Positions 57,784-62,620 of a DNA stretch of 64,000 bases are shown here, piece by piece. Position 1 is the first letter of the stretch. Each line of letters opens with the position of its first letter. Position numbers and translations under genes: made by a program. The notes beneath the pieces are model-generated. The model did not search any database. It was not told where the DNA came from and was given only the letters and a program-made list of their open reading frames with translations. Source of the stretch: Caldilineaceae bacterium (GTDB lineage: Bacteria; Chloroflexota; Anaerolineae; Caldilineales; Caldilineaceae); assembly GCA_019637695.1 (NCBI GenBank), contig JAHBVG010000028.1, positions 1 through 64,000 of the forward strand. The letters are read 5' to 3'.

Positions 57784-59124
57784 ATGAAGGAAATGTCCTA
57801 CCAACTGCAAGAAGAAAGAAAAACAGCCCCACCTCGCTTTCGTTGGCTGCAATTGTTGCTTCTGTTTGGCTTCTTATTTAGCCTGCTGATTGGTCTGATC
57901 GCGCTGGCCGGTCTCTATTTGCTCGACTCCATCGAACCGCAACAAAGCAGTGTTAACACCCCTCCAGCCCTGATCCAACCTGCGCAGATCCCTCCTCACC
58001 TGGCCTTGCTGCAATTGGCCGGCGCGGACGCCGAAGCCTTAGGACGGCAGGCCACCAGCGCCCGTGAACGCGCGCTCGCCTACGCCATCATCCAATATGA
58101 CAATCAGATCGCGGCGCCACGGCGCGCCGCCGAAATGCTACGCCTGGGCGGGCAGTTCCTTGAAGCGGGAGAGATGACCCAGGCGATGGCAGCCTATCGC
58201 GTTGTGCGCACAGTGGGCATCTTGTCGCCGGAAATCCCCGCGCTCGAGCGAGGACAGATCCTGATGCGCGCTGCTGTCGGTCTGCTTGAGAGCGGCGCCA
58301 CCCAAGAAGCTGTGGAAACTGCCCAGCAGGCGCAATATGTCGCCATCCAACTGCCTGGGCTGCTGCCTGCCCAGCGCGCCGAGATCCTCAGCAGTGTGGC
58401 GCCGATCCTCAGGGGGCACGGCTCGCCCGAAATGATCCGCCAGATCGACGAGTTACTGCGCAATCCTAATTTGCGCCTCAACCGCGTGATGCTGATCAGC
58501 CAGTGGTCGCAACTTCAAGAAGCCGCGCCGGTTGATCCCGCTCTGGAAGAAGTGGCAGCTCGACGTCAGGCAGCCGCCCAGGCGCTGATCGACCGCCTCG
58601 TCGCCACCCGCGGACAGGACTATGAAATGGAGCGGGAGGCCCTGCGCCAGATCCTTCTTGAGGAGGATCAATTGCACAGCGTACGCTATGAACGCATGAA
58701 TGAAGTAGAAACCCTGGGCCAACAGCATACGCTGATCGAGGAACAACGCGCCTGGCTGCTGCTTAAATTGCGGATCGCTCTAGGCGGTTTCGGTGTGGAC
58801 CTGGTGCCGGAATGGTCGGGACAGCCCGACGCGCTGCGCCTTTCCCTCAACCAGGTTACCGCCAATTTGATGATCATCTTGCAGGCGCAGATTGCCGCTA
58901 AATCTGACGAAGCTGAAGCGGCTATGTTGCGGGCAGAAGTCTACCGCTGGCTGGCCTACCAGAGCGAACTAGGTTTTTATCCCAATCCGCCGATGGGGGA
59001 ACTGGCTACCCAAATCGACGCTGCCGAAGCTGAATTGGAACGGTTGAACCTGCCGCCCGCCCTGCCCGCCTTCTACGATGTCAACGCCACGCCGCCCGGC
59101 TTCCGCATTGCGCGACGGTATTAG
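57784..59124 (+). CDS. Membrane-anchored helical-repeat protein, function unknown
   Basis: 446 residues. A transmembrane helix lies at about 22-47 (LQLLLLFGFLFSLLIGLIALAG), with a short cytoplasmic N-terminus and a long Ala/Glu/Gln-rich helical region (60-440) of TPR-like character (LAYAIIQYDNQIAAPRRAAE). No enzymatic motifs are seen. It is divergent from glycosidase C and followed by the SIS-like gene, so it may scaffold proteins of that locus. No strong ribosome site; ATG at 57793 is an alternative. I do not recognise the family. Confidence 0.75.
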   Translation: MKEMSYQLQEERKTAPPRFRWLQLLLLFGFLFSLLIGLIALAGLYLLDSIEPQQSSVNTPPALIQPAQIPPHLALLQLAGADAEALGRQATSARERALAYAIIQYDNQIAAPRRAAEMLRLGGQFLEAGEMTQAMAAYRVVRTVGILSPEIPALERGQILMRAAVGLLESGATQEAVETAQQAQYVAIQLPGLLPAQRAEILSSVAPILRGHGSPEMIRQIDELLRNPNLRLNRVMLISQWSQLQEAAPVDPALEEVAARRQAAAQALIDRLVATRGQDYEMEREALRQILLEEDQLHSVRYERMNEVETLGQQHTLIEEQRAWLLLKLRIALGGFGVDLVPEWSGQPDALRLSLNQVTANLMIILQAQIAAKSDEAEAAMLRAEVYRWLAYQSELGFYPNPPMGELATQIDAAEAELERLNLPPALPAFYDVNATPPGFRIARRY

Positions 59125-59128
59125 GAAT

Positions 59129-59190
59129 GAATGAAGAATGATGAATGGGTAGTGCGAGTTGTCACACTACCCATTCATCATTCTTCATTC
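59129..59190. repeat. Perfect inverted GAATGAT heptamer repeat
   Basis: 26-bp perfectly complementary arms (59129-59154 and 59165-59190) around a 10-nt loop, built from GAATGAA/GAATGAT units plus GGGTAGTG. It lies directly after the helical-repeat gene and may end or stabilise its transcript. Confidence 0.75.
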
Positions 59191-59213
59191 ATCATTCATA
59201 ACTCTGGAATCCT

Positions 59214-60232: not shown

Positions 60233-60261
60233 TTGACAGCCTTCTCGTTACCATTTATACT
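60233..60261 (+). promoter_or_regulatory. Near-consensus sigma-70 promoter of a tiny transcription unit
   Basis: TTGACA (60233-60238), a spacer of exactly 17 bases and TATACT (60256-60261). This is the strongest promoter match in the window. It starts about 165 nt before the terminator at 60417. Confidence 0.8.
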
Positions 60262-60359
60262 GAGTCACAAGTTCCTCACCCCACGGACGATCTAGCACTA
60301 CAGTTCTATAGCATAACTGGTGAGGATCCGTTGAGCCGCCGTCTGAAGAAGGAAGGAAC

Positions 60360-60416
60360 ATGCTCTTCATGTCAGTGTGCAAGAAGCCAATCTTAAACGG
60401 AATAGACGTTCTCTAG
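60360..60416 (+). CDS. 18-residue small ORF
   Basis: ATG preceded by AAGGAAGGA with good spacing and ended by TAG, immediately followed by the terminator. The peptide is MLFMSVCKKPILNGIDVL: one Cys, two Lys, a hydrophobic start. The tight packing of promoter, ribosome site, ORF and terminator argues that it is read. There is no run of a single amino acid that would mark a classical attenuator. No known family. Confidence 0.5.
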   Translation: MLFMSVCKKPILNGIDVL

Positions 60417-60448
60417 TCCCAGGTGCGCCCGCGTGCCTGGGATTTTTT
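60417..60448 (+). terminator. Intrinsic terminator of the tiny transcription unit
   Basis: TCCCAGG (60417-60423) pairs with CCTGGGA (60436-60442), extended inward by G-C and G-T pairs, and is followed by six T. It touches the stop codon of the 18-residue ORF. Confidence 0.9.
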
Positions 60449-60565
60449 GTATTCGTGAGCATCTCAGAGCTTCCAATATCTGTTTTATCCCCACTTGTAG
60501 ACGCTTATGTGCAGTTTCGTTTCAGCGGTATTTACCTATCTTAAATGTGAAAGGACAGGACAAAC

Positions 60566-60817
60566 ATGGACGCAATTGCAAGTCGCCTCATCAAAGCTCG
60601 TCAATATGCAGCCGAACGAGATCAGCGTGTTCGGGTTCACAGCTTTGAAGTCGAGATCCAGGGTGAGAATGCCAATCATATCGTCACCTATGATCGGGGT
60701 GAATGGGGTTGCGACTGCGAAGAATTCATGCGCCGTGGCCTCTGCGCGCACGTCATGGCGATGGAAGAAATTTTGGGCGATGCGGTAGAGCCGGCGCTGC
60801 TTCCACTGGTCGGGTAA
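60566..60817 (+). CDS. Stand-alone SWIM zinc-finger protein
   Basis: 83 residues. The SWIM pattern CxCx(n)CxH is complete: CDCEEFMRRGLCAHVMAM at about residues 51-68. SWIM domains bind zinc and mediate DNA or protein contacts. Here it stands alone with a short beta-rich N-terminus (VRVHSFEVEIQGENANHIV). AAAGGACAGGAC precedes the ATG. A terminator follows within 60 bp. Target unknown. Confidence 0.85.
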   Translation: MDAIASRLIKARQYAAERDQRVRVHSFEVEIQGENANHIVTYDRGEWGCDCEEFMRRGLCAHVMAMEEILGDAVEPALLPLVG

Positions 60818-60952: not shown

Positions 60953-62266
60953 CTACGGCGTCACCCGCGCCAGATCGCGCGGGAAGAGCGTGGATAGACG
61001 TACATTGGGCAGGTTCAGCAACTGCATGAGCAGCCGCTCCGAGCCGATGGCAAAGCCGCCGTGGGGCGGCATTCCATAGCGGAACGCCTCAAGGTATGTG
61101 GCGAATGGCTCCAACCGATAGCCAGCGCGGTTGAGGGCGGCCTCGTAATCGGCGTAGCGATGAAGACGCTGCCCACCGGTCACCAATTCGGTGCCGCGGA
61201 AGAGCAGGTCGAAGGAGTTGGAATAGGCTGGTCGCTCTGGGTCGGGATGGGTGTAAAATGGTCGTTTCCCCATTGGGTAGCCTGGCACAAAGAGGAAGTC
61301 GCTGCCATACTCGGCCTGCGCCCATTCGCCCAGCCAGCGTTCATCCTGGGGAGAGAGATCCGGCTCTCCGCGCACGTCCACGCCGTGACGCTGCCAGATC
61401 AATTCCTGTGCATCGCTGAAGTGGATGTGCGGGATCGTCTCAGGCACGGTCGGCAACCTGGCCCCCAACAGAGCGAGTTCGGCGCTGTATCCCTCTTGCA
61501 ACGTGACAAAGATCCCCGCCAGCACCTCGCGCAGCATCGCCATCACAGTAAAGTGGTTCTCGATGAAGCCAAATTCCACGTCGAGGCTGACATATTCGTT
61601 GACATGGCGGATGGTGTCGTGGGGTTCCGCCCGAAAAACAGGACCCACCTCATAAACCCGCTCGAAGACGCCCACCATGATCTGCTTGTAAAACTGCGGA
61701 CTCTGCGCCAGGAAGGCCGTTTGGTCAAAATAGTTGATCTTGAAGACGTTGGCGCCACTCTCGGTAGCGGAAGCAACGATCTTGGGCGTCTGGATTTCGG
61801 TGAAGCCTTTGCGGTTGAGCGTCTCGCGGAAGCCAGCCATGACGCCCGCCGCCAGCCGGAAGATGGCTCGCCGCGCCGGATGCCGGTTGACGACCACAGC
61901 GTGATCGAGTTGAGCGGCCAACCCGGCCTGCACCTCGCGCTTGTTGATGATCACCGGCAAAGGCTCGGTCACTGGGGTGATCACCTCTACTTGGGGATGG
62001 TGAATTTCCACGCCGCCAGGGGCCTGCGCCATCTCGACCACGACGCCGCGCAATTCGATCACCGATTCAGCGCTGACGCCCCCCTCCAACACGGCCAGCA
62101 GATCCGCCTCACTTTCGGTGACAGCCTGCACCGTTCCCCAGCCATCGCGCAGCACCACAAAGACAACGCCCCCTAACCGGCGTACTGTGTGCAACCAGCC
62201 GCGCAGATGGACCTCCTGTCCCACATAGTTTTTTACCTCTGTCGTGCGGATTGTCGCTTGCCCCAT
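60953..62266 (-). CDS. aspS: Aspartyl-tRNA synthetase, archaeal/non-discriminating type
   Basis: 437 residues, clearly shorter than the usual bacterial AspRS (about 590), because the bacterial GAD insertion is missing. An N-terminal OB-fold (residues 15-110) binds the anticodon. The class II core has motif 2 in VFRAEPHDTIRHVNEY and motif 3 in GGFAIGSERLLMQLL, with SLFPRD-like LFPRD near the end. AspRS of this type commonly also charges tRNA-Asn, with GatCAB converting Asp to Asn; whether that is so here cannot be told. GGAGG precedes the ATG. A T-box leader lies upstream, so the enzyme should rise when charged tRNA-Asp is short. Confidence 0.95.
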   Translation of the reverse strand: MGQATIRTTEVKNYVGQEVHLRGWLHTVRRLGGVVFVVLRDGWGTVQAVTESEADLLAVLEGGVSAESVIELRGVVVEMAQAPGGVEIHHPQVEVITPVTEPLPVIINKREVQAGLAAQLDHAVVVNRHPARRAIFRLAAGVMAGFRETLNRKGFTEIQTPKIVASATESGANVFKINYFDQTAFLAQSPQFYKQIMVGVFERVYEVGPVFRAEPHDTIRHVNEYVSLDVEFGFIENHFTVMAMLREVLAGIFVTLQEGYSAELALLGARLPTVPETIPHIHFSDAQELIWQRHGVDVRGEPDLSPQDERWLGEWAQAEYGSDFLFVPGYPMGKRPFYTHPDPERPAYSNSFDLLFRGTELVTGGQRLHRYADYEAALNRAGYRLEPFATYLEAFRYGMPPHGGFAIGSERLLMQLLNLPNVRLSTLFPRDLARVTP

Positions 62267-62317
62267 GATTGCCTCCTTGTGGGTAATATAGGACGAACTG
62301 TCAGTCCGCCCTACACA

Positions 62318-62620
62318 AAAGAAAAGCCCCCGTCCCCAGGAGGACGAGGGCTTACGGCCACATCGTGGTACCACCACCTTTGCCCCAAACCGGGGCCTCA
62401 GCCAGTCAACACAAGCGAGGGCCGTGCAGACTGTAACGCGATAACGGGCGCACCCGAAGCCGGCTACTCTCATCCTGGTTTCACCGGTTGGCTCCGGGGT
62501 GTCACTGCAACGGATCGGCGGCGATGTTCGCAGCCAGGGCATCGCTCTCTGGGCGCCGGTGGGCCGTTCAGCCTCTCCCCATCATGGCCTTTGGTCTGGC
62601 TCAATTGAGCAGAAGCATAC
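62318..62620 (-). promoter_or_regulatory. T-box leader with Asp (GAC) specifier
   Basis: On the minus strand: the stem I distal motif AGAGAGC (62544-62550) followed by a GGCTGCGAA loop segment, a candidate specifier GAC at 62501-62503 within GTGACACC, the T-box AAAGGTGGTGGTACCACG (about 62364-62381), and a terminator CCCTCGTCC / GGACGGGGGC with TTTTCTTTT (62317-62352). Uncharged tRNA pairing with the specifier and the T-box would disrupt the terminator and allow aspS transcription. The reading frame of aspS continues through part of it, so a naive gene call could run too far. A weak TAGACT...TATGCT promoter lies upstream. Confidence 0.9.

Follow-up and report, generated by a model that had tools for sequence, protein, structure and literature searches.

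The leader ORF of the Escherichia coli pyrBI operon, pyrL, has 44 codons, reads past an intrinsic terminator and controls pyrimidine genes in response to UTP-dependent pausing; an antiterminator is not needed. Coupling across the pyrL leader peptide stops termination (PMC5021804), in that a close ribosome blocks the hairpin (PMC5021804, PMC4824070). In the same organism, a trailing ribosome almost abolishes termination a few bp past a stop codon; translation suppresses a terminator by only ~10% if this lies in the first ~100 bp of a coding region, unless the polymerase pauses, and a terminator located 30 bp past the start codon lost ~10% of its efficiency, as the first ribosome lags behind (PMC4824070).

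Other attenuators use leader ORFs in different ways. In the trp, his and ilv operons, a leader peptide and a terminator are combined with a codon run and an antiterminator. In whiB7/wblC of actinomycetes, a uORF and a Rho-independent terminator precede the gene for a small regulatory protein; in that system, termination is promoted once the uORF has been fully translated, and stress gives rise to an antiterminator (PMC11550727). The duf1127-1 uORF of Sinorhizobium meliloti senses translation and sets premature termination before a small-protein gene, with Rho proposed in place of an intrinsic terminator and with a stop codon that does not lie on a hairpin (PMC12218461). Lastly, in the account given in the same article, a ribosome at the leader stop codon of E. 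coli tnaC occludes the adjacent termination signal (PMC12218461); this system is Rho-dependent and relies on tryptophan-induced arrest at a conserved peptide.

Here, we compare these systems with a 216-bp element found in a 64,000-nt stretch of DNA from a Caldilineaceae bacterium, referred to as the window in this text. On the basis of sequence comparisons, we consider it likely that this element is an attenuator of the gene for a SWIM-type zinc-finger protein, acting by ribosome-dependent transcription attenuation through a direct encounter between ribosome and terminator, and not through a switch between RNA structures. The locus consists of the following features:

60233..60261, forward strand: sigma-70-type near-consensus promoter, TTGACA-17-TATACT, shared with a congener
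60268..60450, forward strand: predicted attenuated leader transcript of ~180 nt, its start placed from the promoter and terminator positions
60274..60325, forward strand: 5' stem, CCTCAC (60274-60279) / GTGAGG (60320-60325), also present in the congener, where the insert that separates the arms is longer
60353..60357, forward strand: Shine-Dalgarno sequence of the leader ORF, AAGGA (in the congener, AAGGAG)
60369..60416, forward strand: predicted leader ORF of 15 codons, MSVCKKPILNGIDVL, with stop codon TAG at the terminator base; start and stop kept in the congener
60415..60448, forward strand: intrinsic terminator (the putative attenuator), stem-loop AGTCCCAGGTGCG-CCCG-CGTGCCTGGGATT and T-run, kept in the congener
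60550-60555, forward strand: the SWIM gene's own Shine-Dalgarno sequence, AAAGGA
60566..60817, forward strand: putatively regulated gene, encoding an 83-aa SWIM-type zinc-finger protein, with C49, C51, C60 and H62 invariant in sequence comparison

The promoter, which an earlier sequence-only reading of the window had described as near-consensus, agrees with the consensus in 11 of 12 bases: the -35 hexamer TTGACA occupies 60233-60238 and, after a spacer of 17 nt, the -10 hexamer TATACT occupies 60256-60261. For comparison, the chance expectation of our promoter scan is 1.3 matches with at least 9 of 12 bases per 3.5 kb. Sites of the type TTGACA-N17-TATANT are rare, with 36 occurrences in the 6.8-Mb genome and none for the reversed pattern. 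The 30 of these 36 sites that were inspected mostly belong to ordinary genes, and a second copy of the layout was not recognised among them; a search of the organism's own genome for other copies of the element also returned none. Downstream of another near-consensus promoter in the genome (L231), a leader of ~200 nt that contains terminators precedes the gene for a GatC-like product; this is possibly another attenuator or a T-box.

Two further observations concern the surroundings of the element in the window. Upstream of it, a long near-perfect inverted repeat (GAATGAATGAAGAATGATGAATGGGTAGTG...) at 59123-59200 lies in the gap between two genes; it could represent a repeat element or act as a terminator in both directions. 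On the reverse strand, the leader (62320-62500) of an Asp/Asn-type tRNA synthetase gene (60953-62268, reverse strand) holds GGTGGTACCACG, after which come a hairpin of terminator type and a T-run; this leader resembles a T-box, although Rfam makes no call for it at the gathering cut-off.

All parts that the earlier reading had named were found in their places within the 216 bp, including AAGGAAGGA, which it had listed between promoter and ORF. This holds also for its observation of a T-run terminator touching the stop codon: the stem of the terminator, a hairpin of about -20 kcal/mol, spans 60415-60444, its T-run spans 60443-60448, and the stop codon TAG (60414-60416) reaches into the base of the stem. 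The proposed ORF of 18 codons holds as a short ORF, but probably not with this start. Counted from its first ATG, it spans 60360-60416; this ATG lies just 2 nt past the Shine-Dalgarno sequence and is missing from the congener. The second in-frame ATG at 60369 has AAGGA 11 nt upstream. In the congener, the corresponding sequence is AAGGAG at a distance of 9 nt, and both this ATG and the stop codon are retained without an indel (congener peptide MTVCKMPISNEVQDL). Given the poor spacing and the absence of the first ATG in the congener, and the conservation of the second ATG and the stop, translation probably starts at 60369 and yields 15 rather than 18 codons.

In the downstream gene product, the SWIM signature C-x-C...C-x-H is invariant. 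The window protein scores just under the cut-off of the Pfam SWIM family, which 14 of 17 relatives match at an E-value of 0.01 or better. Its AlphaFold model, with a pLDDT of 89, shows a compact helix-sheet-helix domain, for which a PDB fold search gave no match (best E-value 0.7); a PDB sequence search with the protein gave no relative. The gene is widespread, being present in 90 of 100 relatives and in 196 of 251 Chloroflexota genomes (~78%). Two loci, L026 (G005) and L045 (G012), carry tandem SWIM units in one open frame, of 181 and 173 aa, respectively.

Detectable DNA similarity to the element is confined to the congener, which keeps the promoter, the first 20 transcribed bases, the last 130 bases and the terminator, with conservation of the 3' part at the level of 78%. 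The arrangement of promoter, leader, terminator and SWIM gene recurs in other genera: all Caldilineaceae loci inspected, apart from those of genus g16, have a promoter that matches 11 of 12 consensus bases and then a terminator upstream of SWIM. In a locus set widened with named genomes, in which the family corresponds to Caldilineaceae and the class to Anaerolineae, a near-consensus promoter, a leader and an intrinsic terminator precede SWIM in 99 of 112 distinct loci, nearly all of them from Anaerolineae. Of 1773 random windows, 16 show this order, and of 102 other ORF starts in the same DNA, none does. The SWIM loci are phylogenetically related and the samples not independent, the rule for choosing ORFs is crude and the terminator finder simple, and some of the genomes are incomplete MAGs. 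In other classes and families of Chloroflexota, 19 of 40 loci pass the same strict thresholds, and the loci of other classes that do not pass include several that have a terminator but match the promoter less well, and roughly a dozen that have no terminator.

By the criteria used, the architecture is missing in 13 of the 112 loci. These include genus g16 of the same family (L047, L048, L049 and L051), whose SWIM gene is divergent and has no promoter-leader-terminator unit, and which by this comparison appears to be a natural loss of the attenuator. At another locus (L073), a near-consensus promoter lies at -49 from SWIM, without leader ORF or terminator, possibly as an attenuator-free version. 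The joint recurrence of promoter, leader and terminator upstream of SWIM argues against a self-contained mini-gene, as which the element had originally been described, and its conservation throughout the phylum lends strong support to another early suggestion, namely that of a leader that would control the SWIM gene.

To score the position of the leader stop codon relative to the terminator, we applied a fixed rule that picks, for every leader, the start with the best Shine-Dalgarno sequence. In the class set, the stop falls between -14 and +10 nt from the hairpin base in 24 of 99 leaders, compared to 6.8 ± 2.6 in shuffled leaders, and the ORF reads further on in 50 of 99, compared to 24.9 ± 4.2. 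Under a relaxed rule, which allows an ATG without Shine-Dalgarno sequence and takes the whole hairpin as the target, these stops number 44 of 99 (14.5 ± 3.3 in shuffled leaders). With the same relaxed rule, the stop lies at the hairpin in 18 of 27 leaders of the other-class set (6.5 ± 2.3, with a maximum of 14 in 200 shuffles), an independent sample that is not fully blind, as the hypothesis was formed on Anaerolineae and the other-class loci were read by eye before they were scored. Overall, 81 of 97 and 23 of 27 leader stops are at most 3 nt from, within or past the hairpin. The leader ORFs are mostly 9-27 codons long, those that end at the hairpin mostly 10-25, and they use all three stop codons. 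The median end lies inside the hairpin by 0 to 5 nt, whereas for ordinary long genes in the same DNA the stop precedes the terminator by 4-70 nt in 44 of 51 cases.

This register bears on the view that the ORF, together with a terminator of its own, is an independent gene for a small peptide, which SWIM follows by synteny and from which it is read via leak-through. Promoter, Shine-Dalgarno sequence, ORF and terminator do constitute a complete gene, and terminators commonly follow stop codons; yet the stops of ordinary genes are not placed on or inside the hairpin as they are here, and the peptides of different lineages are unrelated while promoter, terminator and SWIM stay linked across the phylum. 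As SWIM also has no promoter of its own above chance, we regard an independent gene as very unlikely.

Judging from the loci compared, the conserved feature is the position of the stop codon, while the peptides vary between lineages. Examples are MKTCVTTWLRGV and MGAKTNIAISTSLRGA from two groups of family f55 (by inferred name probably Chloroflexia), MLKILIFYHLNKLRV and MRVVSPRENGC from family f50 (likewise probably Dehalococcoides and Dehalogenimonas), as well as MRTPTRKAAVKQFKHA and MRLFYGEPRVC. The sequence K-x-P near the N-terminus is frequent in the Caldilineaceae peptides and is not found so in other classes, and a search of the peptides for a shared arrest motif or a regulatory codon run revealed none that is common to all. 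Within genus g7 of the Caldilineaceae, six species share LxDRTIPHKAPxxC, and 51% of the single changes are synonymous, compared to an expectation of 25%; the other frames give 8% and 24%. Outside g7, the peptides are weakly constrained at the amino-acid level (p = 0.10 in a pooled codon-position test and p = 0.04 for codons 2-9), and start, frame and stop are kept; one f50 lineage maintains its stop through a TGA/TAA exchange. This pattern fits selection that would favour translation as such and the place where it ends, more than selection for the peptide. Peptide conservation in Chloroflexota, for which the earlier reading had asked, thus ends at the genus level, and its idea of an abundant small peptide loses ground, since the geometry of ORF and terminator is kept between genera and the peptide is not.

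The leader RNA gives a similar picture. It had been called foldable, but its predicted fold is no more stable than that of shuffled sequences (z = -0.70), and no alignment is obtained for leaders from different genera; the idea of a stable conserved RNA fold was therefore rejected. As the earlier reading had expected, no RNA family was recognised: Rfam searches returned no match for the window or for 20 relatives. A 6S RNA, which had been considered specifically, was rejected as well, as RF00013 does not match the RNA here and the genome has its own 6S RNA elsewhere (on C71, 62.9 bits). With neither an RNA family nor a shared fold, the idea of a dual-function RNA was not sustained. We also considered a protein- or ligand-sensing leader RNA, either a riboswitch or a target for SWIM autoregulation on leader or terminator, with a secondary role for the ORF. 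Such a mechanism could explain why the terminator sequence CCCAGGYGCG is kept within the family and why several Caldilineaceae genera (g1, g7 and g9) have a hairpin at the 5' end whose loop is rich in C (ACCCC), as at 60274-60325; small zinc-finger proteins are moreover able to bind nucleic acid. However, this explanation seems to us a poor candidate in view of the Rfam results, of leaders that neither align between genera nor fold above chance, and of their length, which is often too short for a complex receptor.

The comparison shows a promoter-leader-terminator-SWIM unit and a predicted leader ORF in register with the terminator, and it detects neither an antiterminator nor a separate SWIM promoter. 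As a promoter, a short ORF predicted to be translated and a terminator precede the putatively regulated gene, the locus has the general makeup of a ribosome-dependent attenuator. In the gap between terminator and SWIM, promoter matches do not exceed chance, and 12 of 126 such gaps are shorter than 30 nt; both observations imply that SWIM would be read through the terminator, and a plausible agent for this read-through is a ribosome that ends its translation on the terminator. Attenuation as such appears well supported by the comparison, and we consider it highly likely that transcription of SWIM is attenuated in a translation-linked manner; its direction, its signal and the function of SWIM we infer. 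In the mechanism that we propose, RNA polymerase would start at the very strong promoter and, by default, halt at the intrinsic terminator before SWIM, releasing a leader of ~180 nt. The leader is presumably also translated in vivo, and if a ribosome arrived at the last codons of the ORF with the polymerase still at the terminator, it would cover the 5' arm of the hairpin; the hairpin could then not form, and transcription would continue into SWIM. SWIM expression would thereby report how tightly translation follows transcription. We favour direct occlusion with this sign, in which the ribosome promotes read-through, as the more probable form of the mechanism. Considering the weak suppression of early terminators in E. 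coli, occlusion at the end of 15-codon ORFs would need a pause or fast ribosome loading, and the switch would perhaps be mostly off, with read-through upon polymerase pausing or fast loading.

Classical leader-peptide attenuation, as in trp or whiB7/wblC, would have the opposite sign: an early stall, caused by a scarce amino acid or an antibiotic, leads to an antiterminator, while completed translation leads to termination. A leader ORF and an intrinsic terminator, which it requires, are present. In genus g7 (L013, L015, L016, L018, L023 and L029), the leader ORF also contains a hairpin, GCACC..GGUGC, with paired changes CCG/CGG and CCC/GGG, just before the terminator; its 3' arm could weakly pair with CACC of the terminator, or the hairpin could serve to pause RNA polymerase. 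However, an antiterminator, sought as leader pairing with the terminator 5' arm, the one type of pairing tested, remained below the level of shuffled sequences (mean z = +0.38; 1 of 99 below -1.64). As the stall-induced sign requires an antiterminator, it is the less likely one; many leaders measure only 40-80 nt, and the peptides contain no single-codon run or universal motif. We therefore consider classical attenuation improbable.

Read-through by direct occlusion would place the element next to pyrBI, with which it shares an ORF that reaches or crosses an intrinsic terminator and the absence of a need for an antiterminator. It differs from pyrBI in its shorter ORFs of ~15 codons, which mostly stop on the hairpin rather than read past it, and in its regulated gene, a SWIM gene of Chloroflexota instead of a pyrimidine gene. 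With whiB7/wblC it has in common the order of uORF, terminator and small-protein gene, but no antiterminator was found here, and with the trp, his and ilv attenuators it shares leader peptide and terminator, but neither codon run nor antiterminator. It is similar to duf1127-1 in that a uORF would set premature termination before a small-protein gene, although here on an intrinsic terminator that carries the stop codon, and to tnaC in the proposed occlusion by a ribosome at the leader stop, although tnaC depends on Rho and on arrest at a conserved peptide. In the open-access literature that we searched, we found no attenuator of a SWIM gene; an earlier description may exist elsewhere.

The putative attenuator covers several classes of one phylum, and what is conserved in it is where a stop codon sits on a terminator, not a peptide or RNA fold. 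Searches for conserved RNA structures or peptides would overlook such elements. The element would provide a natural test case for attenuation by ribosome position alone. More speculatively, it could be an ancient, phylum-wide coupling sensor whose product SWIM acts back on transcription or translation in a feedback loop specific to Chloroflexota, a scenario to which we assign a low probability. For the biology of the Chloroflexota, the link between expression and translation that is proposed here would offer a first functional handle on a near-universal, uncharacterised gene.
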